Of a DNA stretch of 64,000 bases, positions 37,349-59,369 are shown one piece after another. Below the pieces are notes generated by a model. The model ran no database searches. It was not told where the DNA came from and saw only the letters and a program-made list of their open reading frames with translations. The stretch spans positions 62,001-126,000 of the forward strand of contig NZ_PIPM01000002.1 of NCBI RefSeq assembly GCF_003987175.1, in the 5' to 3' direction. The position numbers and the translations under genes are program-made. The stretch is from Aliidiomarina sanyensis. Its GTDB lineage: Bacteria; Pseudomonadota; Gammaproteobacteria; Enterobacterales; Alteromonadaceae. Numbering within the stretch: the first letter of the stretch is position 1; every line of letters starts with the position of its first letter.

Positions 37349-37351
37349 AGC

Positions 37352-39336: not shown

Positions 39337-40771
39337 GCTCAACAACGGCTTTAAACCACAGCCTGCTCAGAAACGTTGTGGAGAATGCGGGCGTTTGACG
39401 GCGACATTTCATAGCATCTATAAAGGCGATGGATTTTGCTGCGCGTGTTATGCCCGAGTATTCATAAGGAAAGAATGCCAGGCGTGTGGGCAGGGATATC
39501 GTATTCATCCAAAGCAAGACTTTGCATACTGCCGAGCCTGCCGCCCAAAGATGATTCCATGTTTTCGTTGCCATCGTACAAATTACCCGATTGGCTGCTA
39601 CTTCAAAGACAAGCCTGTCTGTAATACATGCGCGCCTCATTTCAAAACAGAGAAGGCATGCCCTCGGTGTGGCAAGCTCAGCGCGCATTTAGCTAAAGCA
39701 CTTGAGTTTGGTGTCACCGAAGCTATCTGTAAAAGCTGCATTAGTGCTTATTACAACCCATGTGAATTATGCGGTAGAGCAAGACACCCGTTAAAAGAAA
39801 AGGATGGACATCATTTATGTAGCAAGTGTTACCGGCTTGGTTTGATACCCTGCCCTGATTGCGCCGATGATTACCCTGCAGGCTTAGGCTTGCGTTGTCG
39901 GGATTGCTACCTTAAGAAGCTAACCCGAAGTAAAGCGCAAATAGCGATACACCTTTATGAACAAAAGAGTACTCAGCACGATATCATCGCGTTTGCAGAG
40001 TGGCTTCTTTGTCATACCACACCACTAAAAGCAGTCGTGAGCGTAAATAGATTTCATCCGCTTTTCAAAATCGTTGATGAAAGCCCTGATGAATGGTTTC
40101 TGAGCGCGCATATACTTGCACCGCTTGACAAAGAGCTACTTCGAAAAGATGGGTATGCTCGCTTATTCTATGAGTCCCTCGGTAAAATCATTCCCGCTGA
40201 AGTGCTTGCGGACGTATCAACATGGCGCTCTATTTACAAGCATTTAGAATATATTTACCAGCCAAACTCCTATCCACTCTCAACGGAAGCTCAGCACTAT
40301 GCAAAACATTGTCGGACTCGAATCGAGCGCAACGAGATAAAATTACGAACACTCAAGCAGCAGTTAAGCGCTGTTGTCTCATTTACTACGTACCTAAAGC
40401 GCTGCAACAGGCAGCTCAGTGAAGCTTCCGTTTCAGAGTTTTTAAGGCATTATCCCGGACTTGAAGCCTCCCTTACCGGATTCCTTGTTTTCTTTAACGG
40501 ACCTAGAGCGCCAATAACTGCAAAACGGAAACGATGCAAAACATCCAGCAAGTCCATCTTAAAAGCGTATCTACGACAACCAAAACAGGAAGAAAAACGC
40601 CCACCCATTAAAGTTATTTATGCGGCTCTCAACTACTTGCACGGCGTTCCAAAATCGTTACTGCCTCAGGTCACTATGAAGCATGTCTATCACGATAACG
40701 AAACTGGATTGGAGGTCAGAATTAAGGGGCTTAGGTACATGTTAACGCTCACGCACGATGACTCTGATTGA
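39326..40771 (+). CDS. zinc-finger-array protein, fifth gene of the tns operon
   Basis: A 481-residue protein. The first ~195 residues hold about ten CxxC-type pairs (CGECGRL, CCACYAR, CQACGQ, CRACRP, CFRCHR, CNTCAP, CPRCGK, CKSCIS, CELCGR, CPDCAD, CRDCYL), a row of treble-clef or ribbon fingers. The middle (about 320-420) is helical and faintly like the core-binding domain of tyrosine recombinases (LRTLKQQLSAVVSFTTYLKR); no catalytic R-H-R-Y set is seen. It occupies the position of tniE in Tn6022-type elements; homology was not tested. Its overlap with tniQ argues for a role in transposition, most likely DNA recognition. Confidence 0.75.
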   Translation: MTSELNNGFKPQPAQKRCGECGRLTATFHSIYKGDGFCCACYARVFIRKECQACGQGYRIHPKQDFAYCRACRPKMIPCFRCHRTNYPIGCYFKDKPVCNTCAPHFKTEKACPRCGKLSAHLAKALEFGVTEAICKSCISAYYNPCELCGRARHPLKEKDGHHLCSKCYRLGLIPCPDCADDYPAGLGLRCRDCYLKKLTRSKAQIAIHLYEQKSTQHDIIAFAEWLLCHTTPLKAVVSVNRFHPLFKIVDESPDEWFLSAHILAPLDKELLRKDGYARLFYESLGKIIPAEVLADVSTWRSIYKHLEYIYQPNSYPLSTEAQHYAKHCRTRIERNEIKLRTLKQQLSAVVSFTTYLKRCNRQLSEASVSEFLRHYPGLEASLTGFLVFFNGPRAPITAKRKRCKTSSKSILKAYLRQPKQEEKRPPIKVIYAALNYLHGVPKSLLPQVTMKHVYHDNETGLEVRIKGLRYMLTLTHDDSD

Positions 40772-42662: not shown

Positions 42663-42824
42663 TCTTAATTCCTTAAGGTCAACACCAACTTTGCACAATC
42701 ATCCTTGACTGCAGCATCCGAAAATTGGCGGATAAGATAGGCCAAGCTCGAGAGTCAATCTCAAATTTATCGGCCTTCGTGCGACTAGATCGATTAGGCC
42801 CCTGCGATTGACGTACGTTGATTT

Positions 42825-43107: not shown

Positions 43108-45747
43108 TTATTCGCTCTCTTTAGTACCGACTATACTTTCTAGGCACTCACTAAACTCATTAATCCAAGGCGCAGCGTTATTAAAGAAAGGAAGACCAAG
43201 TATTCTGTAATCTCTGCCTTGAAAGATGACGTGCATCTTCGCCTCATAGTTAACTTGTTTTAGAAATTCCTGCTTCCATTTTTCCTGTTCCGCGAGGTGA
43301 AGACCTTTGGGTTCAATGAATAGCTGCATAACGCTTTCACTTTCCCACTCAGTGCGTCTTAGAAAGAGAATAAAGTCAGGCTCAAAAGCCTGCCCGCTCT
43401 CGAATGAGAATAGTTTTACCGCCTTGTCGTTTCGAAGTAGATGAAAATCATCATACAATCCTAGTAATCGATCAGCATGGTCATTAAGATGCCTGATGAA
43501 GTGCTTCTCTTGGTCGGTTCCGTAACAATCATCATAAGCATACCAGTCCTTGGTTGTCAGGTCGATCTGATCTAAATCTGGTACATTACTCTCGCCTTTG
43601 ACCCAGCTTAATCCAGTCTCGCCTTCCATACGGAGTTTTAGTGTTTTGTCTATAAAGCATTCGCTAATTTTCTTAGGTTTAAATTCCTTTGTGCCTACAT
43701 ACTCAACACTCTCGCGTTTAATGCCGGTTTCGATTTGATTCAGAGTGTATTGCACAATAGATAGCTTTTGACGTGCTGTTAAATTATCTAAGTCTTCGGG
43801 CAGCCCACGCACGCTAACTGTTGCGCCACCAAGATATAAGTCGGAACTTATAAATTCCGAAACACTTGCGAGCTTCGGAAAGTAGTTCCGCAGATTTGTA
43901 TAGTGAAAAAACTCGTTCGCATCCATGGCAGTACCCAGAATGGACTTGCTGAAATTTGCCACTACGAAATCGCGGGACACGGGTTCTGTGCTCGATCGTT
44001 TACGCTTTAACTCCCCACCACTAAAGGCTGAGGCTTCCGTTATCCGCCCTGTCATAAGGTTAGGATAGATAAAGTGGTTTTCGATTTTGTATGAATCGAG
44101 CCCCATCACGTCGTCGCGTGGGTTTCTCACCCGATCATTTACCCATACATGTTCAGACAAGTAAAACGCAGATTGTTTAAAACTTTGCTTGAGTCGCAGC
44201 TTCACGGTTCGGGCCGAGTCATCCAGCATCCCGGTTTCGCGAAGCGCGTTGCGTATATCCTGAATGTACTTCGGATTGTGAGAGCAGTGGTAATGTAACT
44301 CCTCCAAGATCCGCAGAGAAGTATCCAACGCGCTGTCGTACTTACGTTTTTCACGCGCTGCGTCTGGCTGATCTGGAGCTACAAAAGGGAAGTATCTCGC
44401 CCCGCGTCCGATCAACTGCGCTTCGGCCATAGTAGTCTTGCCCACCTTATTCGCCTTGCCATCGCGGGTATCGTACAACCGCACAATATCGAACAAGTTC
44501 AACACGTCCCAGCCTTCGTTTAGCTTATCAACTGCAAAGATGACCCGTATTTCGTTGTCGTGCTCCTCCAATGCGTTCAACTCAATCTGCCTACTTTCCA
44601 AATCCTTGGGGTTGTTGACATTTACCACCTTTTCAGGCGAAAAATCGCCTTGTAGCTCAAGGGCAAAATCCGCGCCGCTCATGGCCCGCGTGTCCATAAT
44701 AAAGGTGAACGCCCTCGAAAGAGTTTCATCTCCCTCTGAAGCTTTTTTGAGCGTGTCCAGTGCCTCACCTGTCAGTTCAGCTACCATCGAAGTGAACGCA
44801 GCTTCGTTCTCTGCACTGTCTTTAATTGTCTTGGATTTCATCAAGATAACGGGCTTGCAATGGAGCCCATGTGCTTCGGCGACTTTACGGCGGTATTGGC
44901 TCAACACCACCGCCTGCATCATTCTATCTTTAGGCGGCAAGTCAGCTTGTCGAAGTTCAATGTCCTTAGAATAGCCTTCCTCACGAAATTGTTTAAGCGA
45001 GTAGTCGTAAAGTATCTTATCGTGGTACTTTTTCCGGATCGCCTCGTGGCTCAAATCCACGGTCGCAGTAAACTCCAACAACATGTTCTCAGGATGCTGA
45101 CGGAAAATCTCGGACACTGTGCTTTCCCAGCTGGCCTTATCCTGGGCTTCTCCCTTGGTAAGGGTATTCTTGGTCTCGGCGTTCAAATGGTGCGCTTCAT
45201 CCGAAATCATCACTACCTTGTAGTTACGGAAATCCTCGATGCTGACGGAGTTCTCTTTCGGGGCTTGGATCCGTGTGTGTAGCCCTTGAATTGTGGTAAA
45301 ATGAATATTAATCGCATCGTTTGATACCGCGTCGAAAGTTTCAACTGCGCGTATCTCAACGGGTTTCTCATCGATCCGAACCGTAGGCGAGAAGAGGTGC
45401 TTTGACGATGCCGGATTCATAAAGTTTTCTTTGGTCTTCTCGATGATCTGGGCGGAATTCACAAAGAATAAGAAATTGCGATAACCGCGCCGATAGAGAT
45501 CGAGGATCAGTGTCGCCATCAACACCGTTTTGCCGCTGCCTGTAGCCATGTGGAACAGCAGATGCGGTGCCTTAGGACGTCCATCATACTTGTCGATGTA
45601 GAAGAGCCAGCGCTCTATCGCTGCACGTTGATATGGACGTAACTTGATGTTAGACGCAAGGTTGGTCGTGATGTCGTCGGGGATGTCCGCCTTGAGCATC
45701 CCAAACTTAGCAACCGCATCTATCTGTTCATTGAGAGTCTGACTCAT
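43108..45747 (-). CDS. type III restriction enzyme, Res subunit
   Basis: An 879-residue protein. The SF2 helicase/translocase has Walker A ATGSGKT (68-74), DEAH (183-186) and helicase motif VI (QLIGRGARYFPF). The C-terminal endonuclease core is visible as FEPDFILFLRR with LFIEPKG. Together with Mod it cuts DNA that has two unmethylated sites in inverse orientation. It overlaps the mod gene by four bases. The frame is intact. Confidence 0.94.
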   Translation of the reverse strand: MSQTLNEQIDAVAKFGMLKADIPDDITTNLASNIKLRPYQRAAIERWLFYIDKYDGRPKAPHLLFHMATGSGKTVLMATLILDLYRRGYRNFLFFVNSAQIIEKTKENFMNPASSKHLFSPTVRIDEKPVEIRAVETFDAVSNDAINIHFTTIQGLHTRIQAPKENSVSIEDFRNYKVVMISDEAHHLNAETKNTLTKGEAQDKASWESTVSEIFRQHPENMLLEFTATVDLSHEAIRKKYHDKILYDYSLKQFREEGYSKDIELRQADLPPKDRMMQAVVLSQYRRKVAEAHGLHCKPVILMKSKTIKDSAENEAAFTSMVAELTGEALDTLKKASEGDETLSRAFTFIMDTRAMSGADFALELQGDFSPEKVVNVNNPKDLESRQIELNALEEHDNEIRVIFAVDKLNEGWDVLNLFDIVRLYDTRDGKANKVGKTTMAEAQLIGRGARYFPFVAPDQPDAAREKRKYDSALDTSLRILEELHYHCSHNPKYIQDIRNALRETGMLDDSARTVKLRLKQSFKQSAFYLSEHVWVNDRVRNPRDDVMGLDSYKIENHFIYPNLMTGRITEASAFSGGELKRKRSSTEPVSRDFVVANFSKSILGTAMDANEFFHYTNLRNYFPKLASVSEFISSDLYLGGATVSVRGLPEDLDNLTARQKLSIVQYTLNQIETGIKRESVEYVGTKEFKPKKISECFIDKTLKLRMEGETGLSWVKGESNVPDLDQIDLTTKDWYAYDDCYGTDQEKHFIRHLNDHADRLLGLYDDFHLLRNDKAVKLFSFESGQAFEPDFILFLRRTEWESESVMQLFIEPKGLHLAEQEKWKQEFLKQVNYEAKMHVIFQGRDYRILGLPFFNNAAPWINEFSECLESIVGTKESE

Positions 45748-47762
45748 TTGTCCACCCCATAGAAAGAACGAGTCATACGAACGTTTTCATCGGAGATGTC
45801 GTAGTCTGCATCACCAAGCGATCCGAAGTTGACATAGAGATGGTTGGTGTCAAGGATATCCATCAACGCCTGCTTGCCATCCTCTAGAGAAAGCGCAGCG
45901 AAATCATCGGTGTTAAAACAGCTCAGGTCTGCGTCATAACGAATATATCCGGTGGCTTGGATGTCGGCATATATGATTTTGAGCTCCGCCATATCTGTGG
46001 CTTCCCGGATCCGGTCTGCAAAGGTAGAATTCGATGCCGCGAGTTCTGCATAGACAAACGAACCACCACCTTGCCAACCAACCGCTTTTGAAATGCCTCC
46101 CTGTTCACCCTCAATGACATTTTTAAGACGTTTGTCCGTCAGACCATTGACGTAGCTCATCTGCTCAATAGCTATCCACTGTCGAGACATTTTATGTGCC
46201 ACTGCGCTTGTTGTATTTGAGCCCGCAAAGAAGTCCAAAACAATATCGCCAGGTACGGTCGAAAGCTCAATTATTCGCTTTAACAATGCTTCCGGTTTTT
46301 TACCTCTATTCAGGGTTACACCACCTTCATTTGCGAGGTCTGCTTTTGGTATCGAACGATGACTCCAAAATTGAGATACTTGATTTGTCTTGTTAACAGT
46401 GCCCTTTTCTTTGACGGCCGTATCCTTCAACCATGCTGTCACCGATTTGTTTAAATAATAGGAGGTGACAACCTTTCCCTTGTCGCGACCGCGACTAACG
46501 AGGTATTCAGCTGAATATAGCCCACTACTACATTTATCCAGAATCTGGTTTTGAAAGGTGTTCTCTTTTTGAACGCTTGTTGTTCTGAAGACTAAGTCGA
46601 ACTTGTCAAATACTTCTTTGATTATCTCCGGCTTGCGATCATCAAAAGACCTCAGAGAGATCGTATCAATCTTAGCATTAGGGTGTTTCCTGATAATGAC
46701 GTCCTCACCTGTGGCTGGGGATTTGAATTTTGTAACCAGCTCACTATCGCCCGCGTCAACGAAAACTTTGTTGTAGCGCTTCAATACTTCGAAATCTATT
46801 TCTTCCGATACGAAGCTATCATTAGTTTTTGATTTTCCCTTATCCTTTGCATAGAGCAGAATGAATTCATGAGTGTTGGTCAGGTGGGCACCGCCTTGCC
46901 CAAGTCCGCTAACGCCAGAACGCTCGTAAGCAATGCAAGCTATAAAGTTTTCCCGTCCCATCACTTCATCGAGAAGAACTTTCAAGTATGCGTGTTCAGA
47001 GTCATCTACCTGTATGTAAATATGCCCATCATATCTTAGTAACTCTCTAGCAACAGATAATCTGTTTTTCATGAAAGAGAGCCATGTTGAATGACGAAAT
47101 CGATCGTTATATCTGAAGCTATCATCTCCAGTATTATATGGCGGATCTATATATATCAGCTTCACTTTGCCCGAATAACGGGCTTTTAGGGAATGTAACG
47201 CTAGCAGGTTGTTTCCTTTGATCAGCAGATTGTCGTCCTCCAAAATCTGGCCTACGGACTTAGCCTTGCCAGCTTCCACGGCTTCGGCATCCCAGCGCTT
47301 CCAGCCAGCCAACACCTTGGGCTCGAACAGACGCGTGATGTCGTCTGGAGCCAGCGTCGTGTTCCAAAACACCTCGTCGCGTTTAATGTCTTCTTTGGTC
47401 ATACCGCCTTCCAGAACACAGTCTTTGTAGGGCCAGTCCAGAACTACTTCATGTGATTGACTCAAGTAGTTGCCTCGTCCGCCCGTGAGGCCAATACGGT
47501 TCTTGAAAGTGGTGTAGCTATCGGGCAGGAAAGCTTTATTAGACACAAAGTCTTGAAACTTAGTCTTATCAAAGACCATTGCTCCCCCAACTTCAGTAAA
47601 AAAATGAGCCTTGATAGTCTCGGATTCTAAAAGAAGTGCTAACAACCGAACATCCATTTTAAGCGCAGCTTCGATCACCGAATTCTTGAGAATCGCCCCA
47701 TCCGAAATGAAAGACTGGTCTCTGTGCAAGAGATCTTCGAGTTCTTTAAGTAAATTTTGCAA
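45744..47762 (-). CDS. type III DNA N6-adenine methyltransferase, Mod subunit
   Basis: A 672-residue beta-class N6-adenine methyltransferase. The catalytic DPPY is at 206-209 in YIDPPYNTGDD and the SAM motif VLDFFAGSNTTSAVA follows at about 516, the order expected for this class. Between them lies a long target-recognition region. It modifies the recognition site and is the specificity subunit for Res. Target sequence cannot be predicted. No simple repeat that would make it phase-variable was seen. Confidence 0.94.
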   Translation of the reverse strand: MQNLLKELEDLLHRDQSFISDGAILKNSVIEAALKMDVRLLALLLESETIKAHFFTEVGGAMVFDKTKFQDFVSNKAFLPDSYTTFKNRIGLTGGRGNYLSQSHEVVLDWPYKDCVLEGGMTKEDIKRDEVFWNTTLAPDDITRLFEPKVLAGWKRWDAEAVEAGKAKSVGQILEDDNLLIKGNNLLALHSLKARYSGKVKLIYIDPPYNTGDDSFRYNDRFRHSTWLSFMKNRLSVARELLRYDGHIYIQVDDSEHAYLKVLLDEVMGRENFIACIAYERSGVSGLGQGGAHLTNTHEFILLYAKDKGKSKTNDSFVSEEIDFEVLKRYNKVFVDAGDSELVTKFKSPATGEDVIIRKHPNAKIDTISLRSFDDRKPEIIKEVFDKFDLVFRTTSVQKENTFQNQILDKCSSGLYSAEYLVSRGRDKGKVVTSYYLNKSVTAWLKDTAVKEKGTVNKTNQVSQFWSHRSIPKADLANEGGVTLNRGKKPEALLKRIIELSTVPGDIVLDFFAGSNTTSAVAHKMSRQWIAIEQMSYVNGLTDKRLKNVIEGEQGGISKAVGWQGGGSFVYAELAASNSTFADRIREATDMAELKIIYADIQATGYIRYDADLSCFNTDDFAALSLEDGKQALMDILDTNHLYVNFGSLGDADYDISDENVRMTRSFYGVDK

Positions 47763-47891: not shown

Positions 47892-48317
47892 TTAATCACC
47901 CCTATAATAAATCAACAGAGTTCTTGCTTCAGAAAACCTGCTTATTGCGCTTTCGTCAACTTGCCAGGACTTGAATGCCTCGCCCCCAATCTTACGCAAA
48001 CATGCATCATCGGGCGAAAAGTTGTGTTGATTTCGGACGCTTTTAATTTCCTCAAGCAAAGAGCCTTCATCGGCAAATTCTCGCTTCTCTTCATATGGAT
48101 CCCAATCGGCTACAAATAGCGCTCGAATGCCCGTGGGAAGATGGTTTGCAAATATGATTGCATCCTCTAATTTGAGCCGTCGCCTAAAAGCTTCTAGAAC
48201 CCCTACAACCATATTCCAAGCCATATTTGTGGTTTGGAGGTCTGCTACATCTCTTGCATCGAGCATGAAATTTTCGAATTGCTCAGTCGCATGATAGTAA
48301 TTTCTCGGTACCGGCAT
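47892..48317 (-). CDS. DUF2267 family protein
   Basis: A 141-residue protein. The central part VLEAFRRRLKLEDAIIFANHLPTGIRALFVADWDP matches the DUF2267 core (paired helices with the LP..R.L...WDP signature). The function is unknown. It lies 129 bases upstream of mod on the same strand and may be part of the restriction-modification transcription unit or a separate cargo gene. Confidence 0.75.
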   Translation of the reverse strand: MPVPRNYYHATEQFENFMLDARDVADLQTTNMAWNMVVGVLEAFRRRLKLEDAIIFANHLPTGIRALFVADWDPYEEKREFADEGSLLEEIKSVRNQHNFSPDDACLRKIGGEAFKSWQVDESAISRFSEARTLLIYYRGD

Positions 48318-48524
48318 TTACGTCACCACTTCATTAAAGCTGATACTGTTAAAACCAATCTCTGAACTGCAAAGGCCTGTTAATTATAATGGATTATTCA
48401 AACATGAGTAACTGGGGTGAGGCTGCTCGAAAAAGCCTTAATGATAGCGATGTTATCGCACTATTGTTGCCGTTCCAGCATAATAGTTCTAAGGTATCAA
48501 TGTGTTTTCTTGGGGACTAGGCGA

Positions 48525-48938
48525 ATGAGTTACGCTCTAAGTGTAAATCCGATAGTGTTCAAGGAGCGCAACAACGCTTACACATTGAACGATGACCAAG
48601 TGGCCGTTTCCCGGTTTAAACGCATTCTTGAGGAATGGGGCGTTCAACCTGCGCTTTGGGCAAACATCCTAGTAGGCATTTCAATTCAAACGATAGAGGC
48701 TCCAGAGCAAAAGCTCGACCAACGGTTAACGCCGGACCAAAGAGAGCGCCTATTTCTAGTTGCAAGTTACGATGACGCATTAAAAGCTCTTTTTCTCCAA
48801 GAGCAACACCGCAGAGAATGGATACAAAACAAGCACCAATCACTGGATGGGTATTCGCCTTTAGACATTTTAACGTGCGGCTCGCTACTTGCGATGGATG
48901 AACTCAATGACTATCTACAAAGAATTATTCGCTCTTGA
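48525..48938 (+). CDS. MbcA/ParS/Xre-type antitoxin-domain protein, orphan
   Basis: A 137-residue protein from the ATG at 48525; the open frame extends upstream without support. The C-terminal segment SLDGYSPLDILTCGSLLAMD is like the toxin-binding domain of Xre/MbcA/ParS antitoxins (LDGRSPLELL), and the centre looks helical. Such antitoxins usually precede a RES- or ART-fold toxin; none follows here. The next gene is an 82-residue zinc protein, so either that is the partner or this is an orphan regulator. Confidence 0.6.
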   Translation: MSYALSVNPIVFKERNNAYTLNDDQVAVSRFKRILEEWGVQPALWANILVGISIQTIEAPEQKLDQRLTPDQRERLFLVASYDDALKALFLQEQHRREWIQNKHQSLDGYSPLDILTCGSLLAMDELNDYLQRIIRS

Positions 48939-48966
48939 ATTTCAGCATTCAATCTGAGGCGTTTGT

Positions 48967-49215
48967 ATGAAGAAAGAAACAAATCAAGCAACTACCGTTA
49001 TCGAAGATATTATCTGCGACATCTGCGGCGAGAGCGTCATACCCAATGTACTAAAGAAACATCTTAAAAACGCCAATGACTTTTCTGACTATGCCAAGCT
49101 CACAGCATCCTTTGGCTACGGCTCAAAACGTGATGGTGAGCGCTTTGACTTCGATTTCTGCGAGTCGTGTTTCGAAAAGATTAGAGCAAAAGTGAGAGAG
49201 TTACAGGGCAAGTAA
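48967..49215 (+). CDS. small zinc-ribbon protein
   Basis: An 82-residue protein with two CxxC pairs, CDICGES near the start and CESCFEK near the end, a plausible zinc ribbon. The middle is charged (FGYGSKRDGERFDFDF). It starts 28 bases after the antitoxin-like gene, so the two may be an operon. Small proteins of this sort occur as accessory genes of mobile elements; function unknown. Confidence 0.6.
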   Translation: MKKETNQATTVIEDIICDICGESVIPNVLKKHLKNANDFSDYAKLTASFGYGSKRDGERFDFDFCESCFEKIRAKVRELQGK

Positions 49216-49385
49216 CTGAGGATATAAAAGCGAAGCTGGTCGAGAGAGAAGTACCATAAATCAGCGATTGCTTACAAGTTACCCTATTGAGCGAGCTCTA
49301 AATTTACACTAGGCTTAAACGCACACTGATGCCGCGTATATTAAGCCGCTGACATCGGAACACAAACCTAAGCAATGGAGGCTTT

Positions 49386-49568
49386 ATGTTAATTCTAACA
49401 AGACGAATCGGCGAAACCTTAATCGTGGGTGATGATATCACCGTCACTATTCTGGGTGTAAAAGGCAACCAAGTGCGCATAGGTATTAATGCACCAAAAG
49501 ATGTGCCTGTGCATCGTGAAGAGATATACACCCGAATTCGTAACGAAGAACCTGAAAAAACCGGTTAG
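49386..49568 (+). CDS. csrA: CsrA/RsmA-type RNA-binding regulator
   Basis: A 60-residue protein, the normal CsrA length, with a GGAGG ribosome binding site. The start [20 protein letters not shown] and the C-terminal RNA-contacting [10 protein letters not shown] are full matches to CsrA. As a dimer it binds GGA-containing leaders and blocks translation or changes mRNA stability. A copy carried by a transposon may act on its own cargo or on host post-transcriptional networks. The host presumably has its own chromosomal csrA outside this window. Confidence 0.93.
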
Positions 49569-49609
49569 ATTTTATCGACTTCCAACTGAAGCCCGCTGAG
49601 AAATCTTTG

Positions 49610-50143
49610 ATGGAAAAGCCCTTTCTAATCGTAGACCTTGAAGCAACATGCTGGGACGGCAACGTCCCCGAGCATGAGCGCACTCAAATAATAGAGGATA
49701 TGGAAATTATCGAGTTTGGTTGCGTTATTACCGATAGAAACGGAACTATCTACGATTCTTGCTCTTTCCTTGTGCGCCCAGTCCTTCATCCGCAGTTAAG
49801 TGGCTTTTGCACGTCATTAACCAGCATTGAGCAAACTCAGGTAGATAAGTCACCTACCTATGTAAACGTCGTGCCGAAAATCGATTCATGGCTTGAAGAT
49901 TTTAATGTCGAATTCTGGGGCTCATGGGGTAACTACGACAAGAATCAAATTCAAGTCGAGTTTGAGCGACAGAAGGTCGCACCTAAGTTCTTTTCATTAA
50001 AGCATGTAAATCTGAAAAAACTATGGCGAAAGGGAAAGCCGGGCGGTCGTTCCTCAGGATTGAGAAGCGCACTTAAATACCATGACTTAGAGTTTGAAGG
50101 CACTTACCATCGAGGCATTGATGATGATCTTAACATTTCATGA
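49610..50143 (+). CDS. DEDDh 3'-5' exonuclease (ERI-1/KapD-like), shortened by a stop codon
   Basis: A 177-residue RNase H-fold exonuclease. The acidic motifs are DLEATCWD with the following E, SWGNYDKNQ, and HRGIDDD with the catalytic H and D, so the active site is complete. It ends at a TGA (50141) just after HRGIDDDLNIS, where relatives continue with another helix. The same frame stays open after the TGA for 22 more codons (to 50212), reading SMSKIDWNKVNEGVKSPKHQ, which looks like the lost tail. This is probably a nonsense mutation. Substrate may be RNA or DNA. Confidence 0.8.
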   Translation: MEKPFLIVDLEATCWDGNVPEHERTQIIEDMEIIEFGCVITDRNGTIYDSCSFLVRPVLHPQLSGFCTSLTSIEQTQVDKSPTYVNVVPKIDSWLEDFNVEFWGSWGNYDKNQIQVEFERQKVAPKFFSLKHVNLKKLWRKGKPGGRSSGLRSALKYHDLEFEGTYHRGIDDDLNIS

Positions 50144-50275
50144 TCGATGTCGAAAATCGACTGGAATAAAGTCAATGAAGGCGTTAAAAGTCCGAAACAT
50201 CAAAACCCTTGATTACTCTTGCAAGTAAAACTCGCTAGAACCTGCAGGTTGGTAGTTCATCTTTGTGGATACGAT

Positions 50276-51004
50276 ATGATTAGAAACCTTTACTGTCCTT
50301 ATTGTCGCGGGTTACTCAATGAAGAGCCCAACTCACCAAAGAAGAGCTCTGTGGAACACATGATTCCTAATGCCGCTCTTTCACGGAAGCGCGGTAAAGG
50401 TGATGGTGACTTTTTCGCCTGCCGAAAGTGCAATGGCCACAAAAGTAATATGGATTACGTAATAGGAGTTATCTCGAAATCTCAATCTGCTAACAGCAAT
50501 CTAGTCGTTGATAGCTTGACTCGTGCAAGTACTCAAACAGATGGTCGTGAAAAGCGTTTTTTGGATATGATGAGAACAGCTGTTCGTAAGCCAGATGGTA
50601 ATATTCATTTAAAAATCCCAATCCATGCGGATGACCTTATATCCTATATGCGATACCTCGGAATGGGGCAGTATTTCAAGATTCACAAAAGACCTTTCAA
50701 TCCTGAACGTTACGTGATGCATTTAGAGTTTATCAATAAGCAGGTGACACAGACATTCCAAGCGTCTTATCAGGATACTCATCATTCCAATCCGTTTTTG
50801 GACATTCAAGAAAACCCTCATGCTGAGGTTATAGGCGATGGAGAAGTGATTATCTGGTACAAAAAAGATGCCTACCTTTTTCTATTTCACCATTATGTTG
50901 GTTTCTTAATTGATATCAAAAAGCGCTGTCGCAGGCACGTTGCGCGAGCAGAGCAAAAGGAAGCTTATATTCGAAAACACTTCAGGTACGGCAAGTTGAA
51001 CTAG
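50276..51004 (+). CDS. HNH endonuclease-like protein
   Basis: A 242-residue protein from the ATG at 50276 (an upstream TTG would add 19 residues). The HNH core is at the N-terminus: CPYC, then SVEHMIPNAAL with the catalytic H, and CRKCNGHKS, a zinc-bound beta-beta-alpha-metal fold. The C-terminal 170 residues are unknown and include aromatic segments (YLFLFHHYVGFLI). It may be a nuclease effector of a defence system with the neighbouring genes. Confidence 0.7.
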   Translation: MIRNLYCPYCRGLLNEEPNSPKKSSVEHMIPNAALSRKRGKGDGDFFACRKCNGHKSNMDYVIGVISKSQSANSNLVVDSLTRASTQTDGREKRFLDMMRTAVRKPDGNIHLKIPIHADDLISYMRYLGMGQYFKIHKRPFNPERYVMHLEFINKQVTQTFQASYQDTHHSNPFLDIQENPHAEVIGDGEVIIWYKKDAYLFLFHHYVGFLIDIKKRCRRHVARAEQKEAYIRKHFRYGKLN

Positions 51005-51100
51005 GTAGGTTTTGCGAAATGAGCTTTCACTCAATAAATTATAAGATCTTACCAACCGGTCGCCGCCAAGAATTAATTTTAACTCAGTTTGGAGAAGCTT

Positions 51101-51751
51101 TTGAGAGAGTCAACAGAGCGACAAGTTTTAGAGAACATGCAGAATGATACCCGCTTGGCCAAAAGTCGTAGAAACTTGCTGGCCGTTTCAGCGGTGCTTA
51201 TCGTTATGACATTCGCTGGAGCAAGTCTCACGCAGGTTAATGGTTTGATTTTTGAGTTAACTTTTGACAGTCCTGAGCGTTTACTCACGGTACTATGTAT
51301 TGCCTCTATTCTGCTTACAATTCGTTATTACAATCATGCATCAAAATATCATTCGGCTATTAGAGAGCGATGGACAAAAAGGCTAACTCATGACAATCGT
51401 GTAATATCGAAGCATGAGCACACTGATGAATGGGACGGCATTGCCTACTTAATCGCCCCAAGCGAAGCTGATTATGACCACCCTTCGGGCGAGTACCCCA
51501 CCCTAGATTTCCATCCGCAATACTTTTTCAACGCCGAGTTTGAATACGCAATTGATGTTTCACATGACGTAATTATCCGACGAGTCAATATCCGAGAATT
51601 ATGGAAAGAATCTAAACGTAAGTACTTGTTAGTGCTTGGGTTGATTCTAAAGTATTGGTTCGACGAACAACTTAACGAACCTGATTCCCTCTTCCTCTTC
51701 TCGCCGTACTTACTCAGTATAGTTGGCGTAATGCTCTATCTTTGTATTTAG
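51101..51751 (+). CDS. hypothetical membrane protein in cargo
   Basis: A 216-residue protein started at TTG 51101, which has GGAG seven bases upstream. Two hydrophobic segments (about 26-45 and 60-78) are followed by a charged part (RWTKRLTHDNRV...) and a further hydrophobic stretch at the C-terminus (SPYLLSIVGVMLYLCI). I do not recognise the family. It lies between the HNH gene and the AlbA-type gene on the same strand; the short gaps support one transcript. Confidence 0.55.
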   Translation: MRESTERQVLENMQNDTRLAKSRRNLLAVSAVLIVMTFAGASLTQVNGLIFELTFDSPERLLTVLCIASILLTIRYYNHASKYHSAIRERWTKRLTHDNRVISKHEHTDEWDGIAYLIAPSEADYDHPSGEYPTLDFHPQYFFNAEFEYAIDVSHDVIIRRVNIRELWKESKRKYLLVLGLILKYWFDEQLNEPDSLFLFSPYLLSIVGVMLYLCI

Positions 51752-51801
51752 AGTATGCTTGGCTTAGTAGGTAACGAATAAATTTGGAGCTGCAAAGACT
51801 T

Positions 51802-53787
51802 ATGCGCATAGATAATGAGCTAACAATTATTTCCGAACTTAAAGAATCAAATGAACTTGAATTTAAGCGTGCGCAAAGTGAGCTCCCTACTGACTTTTGG
51901 CCAACCTATAGTGCTTTTGCTAACACAAATGGCGGAATCATTTTACTTGGTATTACAGAAATTGGAGCAGGTAAACATAAGTCTATCGAAGTCACTGGCG
52001 TGAAAAATCCTGAGACGATTTTAAAGCAGCTTTTTGACCAACTAAATAACTCACAAAAAGTCAGCTGCAATCTCCTGACAGATGAGAGTGTCGAAAAAAT
52101 CATCATTGATGAGAAAGTGATATTAAAAATATCTATCCCGAAAGCTGACCGAAAACTGAGACCTGTTTTCATTAAGCAGAATCCCAAGCTTGGCACATAC
52201 GTACGTCACCATGAAGGCGATTATCAGATCACTGGCGAAGCATTGCAAAGAATGTATGCAGAACAAGGCAGTGAGTCGAGGGACGCGCAACTACTTCGCA
52301 AATTCGATTTAAGTGATCTCGATAAAGATACATTACAGCGATACCGCCAGCAATTCTCCAGCAGAAATCCAGAGCATCCATTCAATGGCTTAGAGAATAA
52401 AGAGTTCCTTCGACAGTTAGGTGGGTGGAAAATTGACCGAGAAACTGGGGAGGAAGGGCTTACACTAGCTGGGCTCCTAATGTTTGGACGCGCAGCGAGT
52501 ATTAAAGACCATCTAAGCCATTTTCATTTAGACTACCTTGAACGAGAGGAAGCTGACCGTACTTCCAGGTACATCGATAGGGTTACAATAGACGGCACTT
52601 GGTCAGGAAATCTTTTTGATTTTTACCTTAAAGTTTACCGTAAGCTAACTGAGAATCTGAAAATAACATTTCGCATTAAAGAAGGCACTCGGAGCGACTC
52701 TAGTCCTGTCCACGTAGCAATTCGCGAGGCATTGGTAAACACCCTAGCGCATGCAGACTTCGCATGCACAAAACCCGTAACTGTAGTTAAGAGGCCTGAT
52801 ATGTTTGGCTTTCGGAATCCCGGGTTGATGCGAATTCCTATTGAAAGAGCAATTGAAGGCGGCTTGTCAGATTGCCGCAACTCTAATATACACGATATGT
52901 TCCGAATGATCGGGCTAAGTGAGCGGTTGGGGAGTGGTGTTAGTTCAATATACCGAAGTTGGTCAACACAACACTGGCAACCTCCAAAGCTATACGAGAT
53001 GTTAGATTCCGAGCAAACTTTGTTGGAGCTCCGAATGATAGAGCTCGTGCCTGCAGAGATTCTAGACGAGCTCTATCAGCGTTTCGGAGAGAGCTTCCAT
53101 ACTCTTAGCTCTCTTGATAGAACAATCATCGTCACAGCAGCATGCGAGAAATGGGTCAATCATGAACGAGTAATGCAACTGACTTCTGAGCATTCTAGAG
53201 AAGTTACGTTAGCTCTGCCTCGCTTAGAGAGGAACGGCTTTCTCACTTCAACAGGGTCTCAAAAAGCTAAGTTCTATACATTACCAGGCGAGAGCGTCGC
53301 AACTGTTGACGAGATCTTCCAAGGCTCCCAAGCCTCGCGCCAAACCTTCGAAGGTAGCTCCGAAGGTTTGAATGCTAGCTCCGAAGGTTTGAGTTCATTA
53401 GGGAGTCATTCTAACGGTGAAGGTGACGTAAGCACTCCTCCGAGAGATTCATTTGGAAGGCTAATCATTGAGGGATTAGATAAGCCGTTCATAGATGATT
53501 TGAATGAGCTACATGGAGAGTTCCGAGAAAATCTCTACCAAATTGCTCAAAAAGCTCATCAGACACGAAAATTATCAAAAGATACAATGCACGAACTAAT
53601 ATTAAAGTTATGCGAGGAGCAATACCTATCGAGAACTGTCCTAGCAACGCTACTTTCACGCTCACCTGATGCTTTGAGACAAAGCTACTTAACTCAAATG
53701 ATCAGAAATGAAATCTTATATTACGCTTTTCCACAACAGCCTACGCATGAAAAGCAAGGATATATAGCAAGTCCTAAAAAACAGTAG
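51802..53787 (+). CDS. AlbA_2/Schlafen-type DNA-binding ATPase-like protein
   Basis: A 661-residue protein from the ATG at 51802. It opens with an AlbA_2 (Schlafen-like) domain: ESNELEFKRAQSELPTDFWP and AFANTNGGIILLGITE. A GHKL-type ATP-binding segment follows (VAIREALVNTLAHADFA, then RNPGL, and GLSERLGSGVSSIY). A winged-helix part and a serine/glycine linker with a three-fold short repeat (EGSSEGLNASSEGL) precede the C-terminus. Such proteins occur as regulators and in defence loci. The role here is unknown. Confidence 0.85.
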   Translation: MRIDNELTIISELKESNELEFKRAQSELPTDFWPTYSAFANTNGGIILLGITEIGAGKHKSIEVTGVKNPETILKQLFDQLNNSQKVSCNLLTDESVEKIIIDEKVILKISIPKADRKLRPVFIKQNPKLGTYVRHHEGDYQITGEALQRMYAEQGSESRDAQLLRKFDLSDLDKDTLQRYRQQFSSRNPEHPFNGLENKEFLRQLGGWKIDRETGEEGLTLAGLLMFGRAASIKDHLSHFHLDYLEREEADRTSRYIDRVTIDGTWSGNLFDFYLKVYRKLTENLKITFRIKEGTRSDSSPVHVAIREALVNTLAHADFACTKPVTVVKRPDMFGFRNPGLMRIPIERAIEGGLSDCRNSNIHDMFRMIGLSERLGSGVSSIYRSWSTQHWQPPKLYEMLDSEQTLLELRMIELVPAEILDELYQRFGESFHTLSSLDRTIIVTAACEKWVNHERVMQLTSEHSREVTLALPRLERNGFLTSTGSQKAKFYTLPGESVATVDEIFQGSQASRQTFEGSSEGLNASSEGLSSLGSHSNGEGDVSTPPRDSFGRLIIEGLDKPFIDDLNELHGEFRENLYQIAQKAHQTRKLSKDTMHELILKLCEEQYLSRTVLATLLSRSPDALRQSYLTQMIRNEILYYAFPQQPTHEKQGYIASPKKQ

Positions 53788-53918
53788 TAACTTATCGGAA
53801 ATAAGCAATGACGACGCACCACTTACCGATCTCATAGCACCACAGACTATACAATTTTCGACCGAGAGAGCCAAAACGCAAGCTTTTAATATTTATAATT
53901 TGAAAGAGAGTGAATTAA

Positions 53919-54740
53919 ATGTCTGAAGACAAAGCTAGAAATTTCCTCAATCAAAATGTCTTTCTCGGACTTTTGTTCGGATTTATTTTATTAGTAGCAA
54001 GTATTGTCCTCTTCGTGTATCTCATGGCCTCAGAGCGCACATTTACCGCTAATCACGAGCATATTTATTGGTTCGCAGGTATCTTCAGCGGAACCTTTGG
54101 AACTTTGGTCGCAGCGGTTGCTGCTATTCTTTTTGCAAAAAGCTTAGAGCAAATCAATGAAAGCAATAAACTACTTGCTGCGAGTGCTACCGCATCAAAT
54201 AGGGCTGTCACAGAAAACACAAAAGCGTTCCAACTCAACGAGTATCGTTATGCTATAAAAGCCATAACAGATCAGATTCTTCAGAAGAACAAATCAGTAA
54301 AAGTTTGGCAGCCAGAAGGGAACGATAAGAACCCTCTCTATAATATTAATATTGAAGTTAAAACGAACTTTTGGGACCTGTTTCACGGCTCACTTTCCGC
54401 GCTCTACCCAGGAATTGATATTGAACGTGTCATTGTAGCTCAAGCTGGTTGGGCTGATTTATTCGATAAGTTAGACGATGAAGATAAGAGCGATTTGATT
54501 TCATTTGGGAAATTATTAGCAAGACAAAGAGCTTTAATCAAAGAATACATACACCTTGGGGGCAACCCTTCAATCTATCTGGACGATATCGAGAACTCCG
54601 AGTACTCGGTAAAATACCTAAATAAACCATGCAAATTTTATAACCCCCCTCCCTTTCTAGACAGACTTCCTCATGTTTTTTGCTCCGTTTACACGGCCTC
54701 AATAGATCTAGTCGAAACAATTGATAGACTCACGGAATGA
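53919..54740 (+). CDS. membrane protein with coiled coil, AbiC-like topology
   Basis: A 273-residue protein with two membrane helices (about 14-35 and 51-68), a coiled coil (about 70-115, SLEQINESNKLLAASATASN) and a soluble C-terminal domain. This layout recalls the putative phage abortive infection (putAbiC) family, but no diagnostic motif is certain. It sits among defence-like genes 131 bases after the AlbA-type gene. Confidence 0.55.
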   Translation: MSEDKARNFLNQNVFLGLLFGFILLVASIVLFVYLMASERTFTANHEHIYWFAGIFSGTFGTLVAAVAAILFAKSLEQINESNKLLAASATASNRAVTENTKAFQLNEYRYAIKAITDQILQKNKSVKVWQPEGNDKNPLYNINIEVKTNFWDLFHGSLSALYPGIDIERVIVAQAGWADLFDKLDDEDKSDLISFGKLLARQRALIKEYIHLGGNPSIYLDDIENSEYSVKYLNKPCKFYNPPPFLDRLPHVFCSVYTASIDLVETIDRLTE

Positions 54741-54829
54741 GTTCTTCCCTAAGAATGGTCACATGACACCCAGAGAAAGTTTGCTATCATTGGAGTTGTT
54801 AAACAGGTGATACAAGAGTTTTAGAGTTT

Positions 54830-55057
54830 ATGAGAAATATAAACGTCCAAATCGAAGACTGCTTTTGCACTATAAAAGTTCCAAGTGATCAATGTGAACT
54901 TACAGAAATGAAACTTACAAATGGAGAAAATCTAGAGGTCTGGTGTAATTCGACAAGTCGTTGTTGTAGCATGAAAATACAAGAGTTAAATAGTGCGCAC
55001 ATAAAACTAAAAAACTCATGTGGTTATTATTCAGATACCCATGTTATATATTTTTAA
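54830..55057 (+). CDS. small cysteine-rich hypothetical protein
   Basis: A 75-residue frame with seven cysteines (DCFCTI, DQCEL, VWCNSTSRCCSM, SCGYY), no signal peptide and a weak ribosome binding site. Cysteine spacing does not match a known zinc finger. It could be real and expressed with the preceding gene, or a relic. Confidence 0.35.
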   Translation: MRNINVQIEDCFCTIKVPSDQCELTEMKLTNGENLEVWCNSTSRCCSMKIQELNSAHIKLKNSCGYYSDTHVIYF

Positions 55058-55461
55058 TTATTTGCAGAGCGGTATAACTACTACACCCAGTTAGGTAGAG
55101 AGCTTTTTGATAATCCATCGCGCGACATGCGTCAGCGAAACTATAAAGTTGCGCCCGCACCAAGTCAATTGGATCATGTTTGAGCTCTATTCTGAAAGTT
55201 TGACATTGTCTTCTCGGGATAAAGCATTTGCAAAATCGGATTTCGGGAAAGCTGTTCTAAAGAACCAAGTTTAGCCATTTCACTTGAATTTTAACCATTC
55301 TAAAATACAACTCTTGCCTGTTGCTGCTCTTGAAGTGCTTAATTTACTGGACTTACAGGCTTCCTCGTTTAAAATAATTTGTTAGCGCTTATTGTGGGAA
55401 TTTAGCATTTATTGTGGAAATTGACACATTGGTCCTATTTTAAGGGATGCTTACAAAGTGA
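55058..55461. other. 404-bp cargo intergenic region
   Basis: No plausible coding frame. It is AT-rich and contains the 20-bp tandem repeat described at 55382-55426, which looks like the end of another Tn7-like element. The rest holds nothing I can identify. Confidence 0.5.
55382..55426 (-). repeat. probable end of a second, older Tn7-like element
   Basis: Two tandem 20-bp units, TTAGCGCTTATTGTGGGAAT (55382-55401) and TTAGCATTTATTGTGGAAAT (55402-55421), match at 17 of 20 positions and are followed by TGACA. Read on the minus strand this is TGTCA followed by two CACAATAA-type sites, which mirrors the outer element's TGTAAGA plus CAAAATAAATGATAA layout. The other end was not found, so it is probably a relic. 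Confidence 0.55.
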
Positions 55462-58400
55462 TTACGTATCTTCTTCGTTGACTAATCGTTCTTGAATTAA
55501 CTTATGATTTGCAATGCTGGAGAGGTGCGCTTTTATTTTATTGTTGTTGTTTAAAAGTTCGATCAATTCATCTAGCTTTTCGCTACTCCATTTACTCAAA
55601 TTCGCGTCTTGAGAGTCTAGCCACTTTAAAAACCCTTCATCATCTCGTCCGACTTGTAAAAGATATAAGAGTACTTCCGCGGCCTTTTCAACATCACTAA
55701 AATCAAATGTGATCTCAACTCCAAAGTGGCTCACTAGCATGATTTTGTAGTCCGGTGGGTAATTATGAATATTGAACACGGATTGAGCCGCCGAAATCAC
55801 ACGCCGACGACTAGGACCAGTTAAGATCTCTACCAGCATGCTGAGCCATTTTTTTTCTGCAGTTTTTAATCGCTCCTTATCTGAAATAATGGTTATAATT
55901 GCAGCGGTTAAATTGCCACATTGTTTGAATGATTTTCCTTTTTGCAAAAAGCAAGCTGTAACGAAGTGTCTGATATTCTCATGCGGAATTTTTATTTGGC
56001 TTTCCCACCATGCTTCATTTTTCGCGCCTAACAGGTTGCGTATATGTTCTGCGAACGCATCTCCCGATGGGCTTTCGCTCACCGCATCGATAAAGCTCTT
56101 GGGCGCACTTAGTACGTGAGGGAGTGTTATATCTGTCACATCCCAGCGCTTCAGCCAGAGTAGAATCTCTTCGCTTGGCAATTGGGATAACAATAACAAC
56201 TCAAATTTTTCGATCGCATCTCCAATGACTAGAGTGTCCACTTTGTCATCAATGATTAAAACCTTTAAAGCTCTTGCTACAGGGACTAAATGATCTTCTA
56301 GGGCCAATTCCTGATATACGTCTTCCAACGAGCACTGACTGGCTAAACAAGATGCTAAATAAGCATAGTCAGTCTGATCTTCGCTTCTTACGTCCTGCGG
56401 AGGCCTTTGTTTAGTTATTAGGCAAACCGTAATAATTTGAGCCCACAGCTTTGATTTTGCGTCTTCATTGGTAAGGCTCTGTAATTGTTTCAGCATTTCT
56501 CCAATTTGAACCTGAGTCCATGCCACTTTGAAAATATTTCGGGTAAGTCTTTCTGGATCCTTGTCAGCGTCTGAGATTTTGACAAGCGGCTGAGGTTTTT
56601 TTGATTCGAATCGCTCCCAGCTCAATCGATACGACGTTAAAATATGCTCAAACAGTTCATTAGTGTGTTCAGCTATCGCAGCTAAGGCAGTCCCATCAGA
56701 TTCATCATAGGGGACTTGGTCTAACTCATTGAGGAGAGCAATCGCCTGCTCTTCCTCTAACTCGATATCCTCGATACTCCAATAAGGTGTCTTGTTTCGA
56801 TTAGGCCATAATAGGGTGACATAAGTCACGGCATTAAAATCCGAAATAATTGACGGCATTACTTTGAGAATGGTGCTTAGCGTATATAGTAGCTCAAGGT
56901 TTTCATCTTGAATTTTATGGGCTTTATTGTTCAGTGAATTGTATATTCTAAGAAGTTTTGCGTCCGATACTTGATAGCCGGCTTTGTGAACGGTTTGCCA
57001 TGCACTTGTGTATTTAACGCTGTCATTTAACTCCTGCGAATCAGATTTTGTTTTGTCATTAATTACCGGTAAAAACTTGCTCATCCAGACATGCCCCGAC
57101 TCTTGAGTGGCTTTATCCTCAAGCATGTGTGCGGCTGTTACAACAATATCTTCCGTGCCAATCTGATCAATCGCATCCTCTAAAATGGATTCATACCCTA
57201 GAATCCCTTGCTTGCTCAACAGTGCTTTAGGTGCGTTCTTACGTAAAGCACTTTCTATTGGTTTTATAAGAAACTCACTTTCCGCGATTTCATAGCTTGT
57301 TTGAAAGTGTATTGACGCTAAATCCAATGTAATGTCCTGAAGGGGAATACCACTCTTTAGCACTTTCATGCTTTGAACGATTCTGTCGTCTACTACCGAA
57401 CTTCTTGGCACTTCAGCCTCTGCGTAATCACTAGCTACTTGATCGAGAGGTATGCCGCCTAAGTAAACGGCCAGGTAATAATAAAATGCAGTGGCGGATT
57501 TTATTTCCTCTGCTTCTAATAGCATTGAACTCACAACCAAATTAACAAGACGCTTAAGGTATCGTGGCGTTATTTCATCGTCATCTCCGGTCCAAATGCC
57601 AATCAATTTTGTCGCCATGTCAACTTCAATTGTTGGCATTTTAGGTATAGATTCTTGAGCCATTCGCTCAAGCTCTTTTCTCCAGTCGGCAGTGACCAGT
57701 GGTGAAACTCGGAACGTGATCGGTATTCGTTTCGAAATAAACTCTCTCCCGATGGCAGCATGCTCTTGTTTGGCTTCTTTATTCAAGATGGCTTCTACAT
57801 GGACAGCAGAATAGGGAATTAAAACTTGTATTTGCGTATTCGCAATTGACTTGAAAACATCAATATCACTCCAGACTTCCCGTAGCTTGTCATCTGTCAC
57901 TCGATCAATATTGTCTATCACCAAAATGATTTTGACATCTTCTTTGAGTGAGTGTTGAAATTCCTTTAATGCTTCCTCAAGCTCGTAGGGCCCTACTTCG
58001 CGCGTAATATCGAATGTCTCACTAACTCGGTCGCTACCGGTACGTTTGAATAAGTTTGAGATTGATGGGATGTTTAATCTTTCTACTTTTAGGTAGGAGA
58101 GGAAGAGAATCACAAACGGCGATAGGAAAAAGAAAACTGCTAGACCGTGTTTAAAGCTGGGCTCGTGGCTTTCACGTAAAACGACGAACTCTAGAAAATA
58201 TCCTAAACCTGTCAAACCGTCTCTTGCAGCCCCAACAGCAAATAAGACAGCAATTGCAAATGCGATTGTCCAAGCGCTGAAATGGCTGTTGACGTCGATG
58301 CTGTAATCGAGTTTATTGCCTAAGGCGATTTGTTTTGCTTTAAGTGCTCTCTCAGTGCAGCCTGGTTTAAAATGGCGGTTTATATTGTCATAGATAGTCT

Positions 58401-58677
58401 CGATTAGTGCTTTTTTTGTGGCGCCATGCTGATATTTTTCAACATTAAAATCTATGATCTCAAAAGTCTTGTGCTGAGGATTACCCTCTAATTTCTGACG
58501 TATTAACTCAATAACGGTGCTTTTCCCGGATCCGAGCGGCCCCTCAATACCAACTATATTTATACCATTATCTTCAGTTAGAGTGTCACATACAGCGCTC
58601 GCAGCGCGTTGATGTCCGCCTCCTAAAAATCGGTCTTCTGCTGACGGAGATTCATCCTGAAATCGATATTTATTCAT
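55462..58677 (-). CDS. KAP-family P-loop NTPase with membrane segments
   Basis: A 1071-residue protein. Walker A is GPLGSGKST (46-54), two membrane helices follow (about 134-150 and 178-197), inserted in the NTPase domain as in KAP ATPases, and Walker B is ILVIDNIDRV (251-260). The C-terminal ~600 residues are helical and unknown. KAP NTPases are cytosolic-face membrane ATPases often found in mobile elements and defence loci. It stands alone on the minus strand at the right end of the cargo. Effector is not visible in the gene itself. Confidence 0.85.
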   Translation of the reverse strand: MNKYRFQDESPSAEDRFLGGGHQRAASAVCDTLTEDNGINIVGIEGPLGSGKSTVIELIRQKLEGNPQHKTFEIIDFNVEKYQHGATKKALIETIYDNINRHFKPGCTERALKAKQIALGNKLDYSIDVNSHFSAWTIAFAIAVLFAVGAARDGLTGLGYFLEFVVLRESHEPSFKHGLAVFFFLSPFVILFLSYLKVERLNIPSISNLFKRTGSDRVSETFDITREVGPYELEEALKEFQHSLKEDVKIILVIDNIDRVTDDKLREVWSDIDVFKSIANTQIQVLIPYSAVHVEAILNKEAKQEHAAIGREFISKRIPITFRVSPLVTADWRKELERMAQESIPKMPTIEVDMATKLIGIWTGDDDEITPRYLKRLVNLVVSSMLLEAEEIKSATAFYYYLAVYLGGIPLDQVASDYAEAEVPRSSVVDDRIVQSMKVLKSGIPLQDITLDLASIHFQTSYEIAESEFLIKPIESALRKNAPKALLSKQGILGYESILEDAIDQIGTEDIVVTAAHMLEDKATQESGHVWMSKFLPVINDKTKSDSQELNDSVKYTSAWQTVHKAGYQVSDAKLLRIYNSLNNKAHKIQDENLELLYTLSTILKVMPSIISDFNAVTYVTLLWPNRNKTPYWSIEDIELEEEQAIALLNELDQVPYDESDGTALAAIAEHTNELFEHILTSYRLSWERFESKKPQPLVKISDADKDPERLTRNIFKVAWTQVQIGEMLKQLQSLTNEDAKSKLWAQIITVCLITKQRPPQDVRSEDQTDYAYLASCLASQCSLEDVYQELALEDHLVPVARALKVLIIDDKVDTLVIGDAIEKFELLLLSQLPSEEILLWLKRWDVTDITLPHVLSAPKSFIDAVSESPSGDAFAEHIRNLLGAKNEAWWESQIKIPHENIRHFVTACFLQKGKSFKQCGNLTAAIITIISDKERLKTAEKKWLSMLVEILTGPSRRRVISAAQSVFNIHNYPPDYKIMLVSHFGVEITFDFSDVEKAAEVLLYLLQVGRDDEGFLKWLDSQDANLSKWSSEKLDELIELLNNNNKIKAHLSSIANHKLIQERLVNEEDT

Positions 58678-59343
58678 TGGTTTACTGGCTCCATGTAAAG
58701 AATATGGCGTCGATGCTGATGCATGGTTAGAGGTCTGTTGCTCAACAATACGTTATTACGAATTGAATTTGTAGATTTTTAAAGCCTCTCCCGGGCACCG
58801 ATCAAATGAGCGCTTTGATATTGCTTGTTCATACATTGTGACACCAGTCTAAATGGAGTTCGAATTCAATCTTTAACGGTCCTCATCTCGAGTGCTGAAT
58901 GAGGTAGGACTCATCGTTGCTTGCTGAAAGAAGTTTAAAGGGGACTCCAACCAGACAACCATCTGCGCTTCGAGTCGCGATCGCTTCGCCTGAAAGTTTG
59001 GCACATACCAAAATCCCTATCGCTCAGATATTCAATAGAAAGTCTTTCGATGGAGATATAGGGAGACCCGAGCGGCTCCGTGCGGTGACTATTGTGCATT
59101 TTATTATTCTTGTGAGACTCGTTGAGTTGGGCTACGTCTCGTCCCATCATTTTTTTCGATCTATGCCGACGGTGGTATCAATGGTATCGACAGTATCTGT
59201 ATGTGGATCATGCGGAGATGGACCAGTAGTAATTCCCCACGTATTTCGCTCTATCGCACCTGTTGTGAAAGTTAACAGCAATTGCAGATAGCATTGAATA
59301 GACAACATAGCACAACGATACCCATTATCATCTATTTCGCCTC
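58678..59343. other. right-end non-coding region of the transposon
   Basis: About 670 bp with no gene I can support. A 124-codon frame at 58917-59291 has no recognisable domain, and an opposing frame overlaps it. The KAP gene promoter must lie in its left part. Confidence 0.5.
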
Positions 59344-59369
59344 ATTATCATTTATTTTGCAATCTTACA
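59324..59369. repeat. transposon right end with two TnsB-type binding sites
   Basis: The inner site ATTATCATCTATTTCGC (59324-59340) and the outer site ATTATCATTTATTTTGC (59344-59360) are 20 bp apart and inverted relative to the left-end sites. The outermost 26 bases (59344-59369) exactly complement the left terminus. Confidence 0.92.

Follow-up and report, generated by a model that had tools for sequence, protein, structure and literature searches.

A solo end of a second comM-associated Tn7-like lineage in the cargo of a Tn7-like element of Aliidiomarina sanyensis

Results

The window analysed here, a stretch of 64,000 nucleotides from Aliidiomarina sanyensis, carries a Tn7-like element inside comM, and the cargo of this element contains an end that belongs to another: by its sequence, layout, terminus and lineage, the block at 55365–55426 is the tns-distal terminus of a second comM-associated Tn7-like lineage. 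Probably, an element of the second lineage inserted into the cargo of the first and its tns side was later deleted. We refer to the two ends of an element as 'tnsA-proximal' and 'tns-distal'; in the Tn7 convention, as given in the available part of PMC11406308, the end upstream of the tns genes is the right end, and the stranded end is a left end.

Table 1 Features of the window that bear on the stranded end (window coordinates)
Feature	Position	Strand	Remarks
Two tandem 20-bp TnsB-type binding units with terminal TGTC (plus strand TGACA)	55382–55426	−	Terminal part of a TGTC-type Tn7-like tns-distal end; TnsB binding putative
62-bp conserved end block	55365–55426	−	55/62 against the comM-borne end of G727; 53/62 against P. 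planktonica (G657) and against G722
CATTG, the five bases just beyond the terminus	55427–55431		Expected target duplication of the lost element; not comM; without a partner copy beside another TGTC end
Interior side without an ORF of at least 100 aa	54741–55364		Coding-looking fragment at about 55063–55380 over two frames
KAP-NTPase cargo gene	55462–58677	−	3' end 36 bp outside the stranded end
Outer Tn7-like element, 24,772 bp, inside comM	34598–59369	+	Perfect terminal inverted repeat of 26–27 bp, TGTAAGATTGCAAAATAAATGATAAT; 5-bp duplication GCCAC on both sides
Outer tnsA, tnsB, tnsC, tniQ (ORFs 34735, 35420, 37352, 38194)	34735–39336	+	Sole tns set found in the window
481-aa cysteine-pair-rich protein	39326–40771	+	Position and zinc-finger pattern as for Tn6022 TnsF; putative TnsF
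638-aa conserved protein, possible remote TnsE	40782–42698	−	PF18623 TnsE_C, E 0.019 (weak), in one of six aligned relatives; no match for the window's copy
tns-distal end of the outer element	59321–59369	−	Two tandem 20-bp units, sequence unlike the stranded end

Two tandem 20-bp units, identical at 17 of 20 positions and followed by TGACA, had been noted in the first-pass annotation, and direct reading confirmed them: the minus strand of 55382–55426 is TGTC followed by AATTTCCACAATAAATGCTA and AATTCCCACAATAAGCGCTA. Adjacent 20-mers with at least 17 of 20 identities occur at only two places in the 64 kb, here (55382/55383) and at 59321, where the outer element has its own tns-distal end; no such tandem site appeared in 40 first-order Markov sequences of 64 kb each with the composition of 34598–59369. 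With up to three mismatches allowed, the exact 20-mer of the stranded end matches the window once, against an expectation of 0.01. The layout had been likened to that of the outer element's own ends; this is true of the tns-distal end, with its two tandem sites, but not of the tnsA-proximal end, which has four spaced sites. The difference in sequence that had been pointed out (CACAATAA versus CAAAATAA) is real, and under one alignment scheme the two outer ends score 4 and 7 against the 62-bp block, compared with 60 for the Pseudidiomarina planktonica end described below. As at the borders of comM-borne elements, a terminal TGT is combined with tandem TnsB-type sites. For the coding-looking fragment on the interior side, no relative was found in PHROGs or plasmids.

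The outer element is Tn6022-like in that it carries tnsABC and tniQ and is inserted in comM. Pfam matches to TnsA, Mu C-terminal, TniB and TniQ were obtained, and Mg-chelatase/ComM halves flank the element on the right and left. With the comM-targeting Tn6022 group (tnsA-tnsB-tnsC-tniQ-tnsF-tnsE) it shares the target and the order of the first four genes; its cysteine-rich protein may correspond to TnsF and its 638-aa protein possibly to a remote TnsE, the comparison covering target and gene content. The end primers of AjTn6022, reverse-complemented, read as if its terminus were TGTCATTT (available portion of PMC10293859). Library searches with the 481-aa protein gave no informative match, and NCBIfam gave no name for any of seven proteins. 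The 638-aa protein may, judging from sequence, be a remote TnsE; searches of the PDB with its family gave no TnsE relative, the single protein having one unrelated match (E 0.099) and the profile none.

A scan of genome contigs with the terminal unit led to contig NZ_FXWH01000001.1 of P. planktonica (G657 and G697, one genome that we counted once), in which an apparently intact Tn7-like element, its tnsA, tnsB, tnsC (TniB) and tniQ identified by Pfam, splits comM. Its tnsA-proximal end begins TGTCAATTCCCACAATAAATGCTAA and reads TGTCAATTCCCACAATAAATGCTAAC, followed by the four genes in this order; some 30 kb from it lies the tns-distal end, TGTCAATTCCCATAATAAATGCAAATTTCCCATAATAAGCGCAAATAAATGATTTTGAACGA, which again adjoins comM. 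This tns-distal end has the same two tandem 20-bp units and the terminus TGTCAATT, and it aligns with the window block without gaps (BLASTN E 6e-16 against a 34-kb region); the nearest end found was that of G727. The P. planktonica element differs from the window copy in having both ends, tns genes and GAACC flanks in comM, whereas the copy in the window consists of one end lying within another element. Because its TnsB is just 39% identical to that of the outer element, the P. planktonica type represents a second lineage, which we call the TGTC type. Both this lineage and the outer element, whose TGTAAG type is also found in G253, are Tn7-like, reside in comM and have two tandem 20-bp units at the tns-distal end; besides TnsB, they differ in that the outer units are CAAAATAAATGATAA and not CACAATAAATGCTAA. 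TnsB-bearing relatives of the P. planktonica element in G727 and G722 are bounded by the same end, which bears out the earlier proposal that the repeat is the end of a second Tn7-like element. In all four comM-borne TGTC elements with both ends read, the 5-bp flanks match (GAACC in G657, GAGCC in G722, GAGCC in G028 and AGCCC in G727, the last over two contigs).

TGTC-type TnsB had matches at E ≤ 1e-100 in 28 of 395 family genomes, eight of which (49–100% identity) were taken as belonging to the TGTC lineage. The window's genus contributed just four matches at this threshold, with 37–41% identity, and the window's own genome one.

When four TGTC-type tnsA-proximal ends were compared with the window, they matched only the solo end at E ≤ 0.05; weaker matches at 20249 (E 0.10) and 57060 (E 0.36) were taken as chance. 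Six proteins of TGTC-type elements matched only the outer set at E ≤ 1e-3. Neither a matching opposite end in inverted orientation nor a cognate TnsA/B/C set in cis was found in the window. With no opposite end there, what remains is a solo end and not an element. The annotation had proposed that an element inserted here and has since decayed; the window agrees with this in lacking an opposite end and a second tns set, while nesting and decay themselves we infer, the former from the non-comM sequence outside the terminus and the latter from absence.

To see how common such ends are, a sequence model, R1, was built from seven tns-distal ends and run on 26 chosen genomes including 17 of the window's genus (15 with a match at E ≤ 0.1), and then on two further genera (4 of 26 and 5 of 19 genomes with a match at E ≤ 0.001). 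Among the 33 matches of the first run, 13 were dropped as single sites of tnsA-proximal ends (G727, G722, G657, G028 and G690, the last probably so from its position) and six weak ones (E 0.012–0.093; G165, G656, G690:C6, G654, G657:C5:156157 and G000:C47) were left out; G165 and G656, on inspection, had no end-like terminus. At least 14 tns-distal TGTC-type ends were found in 62 genomes of three genera, a lower bound as the best 150 candidates were scored per genome, and seven of the 14 built R1 and so fit it by construction.

Eight ends adjoin the N-terminal part of comM (G727, G657, G722, G072, G291, G690, G682 and G028), and all eight have the two-unit layout. The other six lie away from comM: the window copy, two in G059, one each in G286 and G204, and a second one in G291. 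One 20-bp unit is absent in three of these six but in none of the eight at comM (Fisher p 0.055), as direct-repeat slippage would give once the end was no longer needed. The six copies share one end point, although the terminus is TGCC in G291 and TGTA in G204, and their outside sequences begin CATTG, CCTTT, CCTTA, CTAGC, CGAAT and CAAAT; over 1.5 kb, these outside flanks have nothing in common at E ≤ 1e-3. All six have C just beyond the terminus, giving TGACAC or a similar reading across the border, while this base is G or A in each of the eight copies at comM; the difference does not fit simple nesting, nor does the C.TT.GGT shared by G000 and G059A1 outside the terminus.

Five copies lie inside comM islands, one in the window, two in G059 and one each in G286 and G291. 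All are oriented like the tns-distal end of their host, at distances from it of 3943 bp in the window, 2783 and 5267 bp in G059, 3791 bp in G286 and 3584 bp in G291. Random insertion would give the same orientation in five of five with a probability of 1/16, two of the five being in one island, and the co-orientation and the 2.8–5.3 kb clustering are suggestive, the cases being few. The host in G291 is itself a member of the TGTC lineage in the broad sense, and its inner copy is the most diverged one. In G204 (L091/L164, about 1327–1368), a one-unit TGTC-type end lies outside comM in a chromosomal setting; its neighbours, read by eye, are an IS3-like integrase fragment and a lipoprotein gene.

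Other searches were also carried out. Exact and degenerate scans of viral contigs for the stranded end gave nothing, and plasmid BLASTN with a 171-bp query gave 15 records with E of about 6 and at most 19% of the query covered. The genome-contig scan gave four records, namely Prevotellaceae, Flavobacterium, one Aliidiomarina contig and P. planktonica, the first two of which were treated as chance. The terminal 18 bases were found in five of 295 family genomes, four of them foreign; none of the foreign matches had a second unit behind it, and these too were put down to chance. The two-unit pattern with three mismatches was found in seven of 394 genomes of the order, and none of the six foreign matches was end-like; a further pattern search in the family (six of 295 genomes) led to G072 and G204, the match in G216 not being end-like. 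A resemblance to an IS21-family end was considered and dropped, the genes bordered in G657 being tnsA, tnsB, tnsC and tniQ; there, where the genes were read, no IstA/IstB or other IS transposase lies beside the end.

Discussion

We infer an insertion followed by a deletion because the terminus is abrupt, the sequence outside it is not comM, and neither a partner end nor a second tns set accompanies it. By analogy with Tn7 biochemistry, the two tandem 20-bp units would have served as binding sites for the TnsB of this lineage, which would also have linked the TGT terminus to the target DNA. A TGTC-type element would have inserted into the cargo of a TGTAAG-type comM resident with its distal end toward the tns-distal end of the host, and a later deletion would have removed the tnsA-proximal end and the tns genes, so that a solo end remained, perhaps with some cargo to its left. 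That non-comM sequence lies outside the terminus favours this order of events, and abrupt termini in different settings, being the outcome of transposition, favour insertion into the cargo of a resident. However, the single orientation and the 2.8–5.3 kb spacing in five copies are unlike random nested insertion, and no intact nested copy, partner end or target-site duplication was found. One speculative addition is a TnsE-like, replication-oriented pathway, which would account for both the non-comM target and the fixed orientation. In Tn7, insertion directed by TnsE is strongly biased in its orientation relative to replication (PMC5371812, available part), and TnsE relatives are present in Tn6022-like elements according to the accessible text of PMC10293859.

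An alternative that we consider unlikely, though it fares best among the rivals, is that elements inserted side by side at comM and were later fused by deletions, so that an element that had come earlier or lay in the middle left its distal end stranded. Such a history fits the co-orientation of all five interior copies and their clustering near the tns-distal end of the host. The TnsF of Tn6022 reads the Walker B region of comM (PMC10293859, in the part available), and in the window this region, as read from the sequence, is on the tnsA-proximal side, so that re-insertion at comM is conceivable. It predicts, however, a comM-derived 5-bp flank and the end of another element past the terminus, which none of the six non-comM copies has, and no fewer than two insertions and two deletions are required for TGTAAG to stand at both outer ends.

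Several events have left their mark on the neighbourhood. The tns module of G253 is 96% identical to that of the window, but the KAP side is absent in G253, where roughly 0.6 kb takes the place of the stretch from about 49660 to 58817; since the KAP side is missing despite a near-identical tns module, we regard the neighbourhood as a mosaic of several events. The 96% identity to G253 breaks off abruptly at 42948, a breakpoint of cargo exchange or deletion; it lies within a small conserved region that follows the tns genes and extends further in G253 and G286. Exchange of cargo blocks is clear further on: 48887–49658 is 98% identical in G253 and 48009–49659 is 86% identical in G059, and the two matches end within one base of each other. 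An RNase_T 3'-5' exonuclease-like gene (49607–49659) that is full length in the window is reduced to its first codons in G253 and G059, which diverge within one base of each other. One could therefore imagine that the block with the stranded end arrived by homologous or illegitimate recombination between comM islands and not by transposition at this spot. This strikes us as improbable, because block exchange should sometimes carry flanks along, but the flanks of the six non-comM copies are unrelated while the terminus point is constant.

Insertion and subsequent deletion also has to be set against a KAP-linked regulatory or intergenic repeat, or chance, a reading with practically no standing that comM-borne elements have already refuted: the KAP gene does lie close by, and a regulatory repeat upstream of KAP genes had been named as what would refute a transposon end, but the repeat is downstream of the gene, the same block bounds comM transposons in two other genera, and the similarity to the P. 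planktonica end is far beyond chance. The KAP protein has relatives at E ≤ 1e-60 in two of 395 genomes, the window's own and G001 (34% identity); in the flanks available for the G001 gene, a single loose match of 12 bases was seen, but no end of this kind.

Of greater interest than the single end is the recurrence of stranded ends that share one orientation. Stranded ends in near relatives suggest that the islands were built from the remains of several elements. We tentatively raise the possibility, more doubtful than the insertion and deletion themselves, that comM islands of Aliidiomarina and its relatives grow by same-way insertion of one Tn7-like lineage into another's distal cargo, perhaps through a TnsE-like pathway sensitive to the direction of replication, and that loss of the inner tns genes leaves cargo and a solo end. 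If so, stacked solo ends would be a readable record of cargo accretion, and should a larger sample bear out the shared orientation, cargo gain by Tn7-like elements would become testable from sequence alone. Other mobile elements nested in Tn7-like cargo have already been described (PMC8649781, in the portion available). In the accessible portions of the open-licence PMC literature, we found no solo ends of one Tn7-like lineage inside another, weak evidence of novelty. Boundary-finding for Tn7-like elements relies on arrays of TnsB sites (available text of PMC8649781) and could be misled by solo ends of a foreign lineage in the cargo; such ends also record how defence-rich cargo was gathered.

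Two further observations concern the islands and their contents. The comM of one genus hosts three Tn7-like types, with ends TGTAAG, TGTGATA and TGTGAGA and TnsB 51–57% identical between types (loci L045/L046 in G059, L047/L048 in G286 and L043/L044 in G253), and the G059 island has a second short TnsB-like match beside its own TnsB (L045 18466–18723; 28% identity, E 6e-5), possibly a remnant of another transposase. In the window, the cargo includes defence-like genes (43108–47762, 51784–53787 and 55462–58677), namely a type III restriction-modification pair, a Schlafen AlbA_2 protein and the KAP NTPase, the last with partial PADLOC matches to PifA and QatA, and a 261-aa protein at 50219–51004 has weak PtuB matches (E 8e-5).
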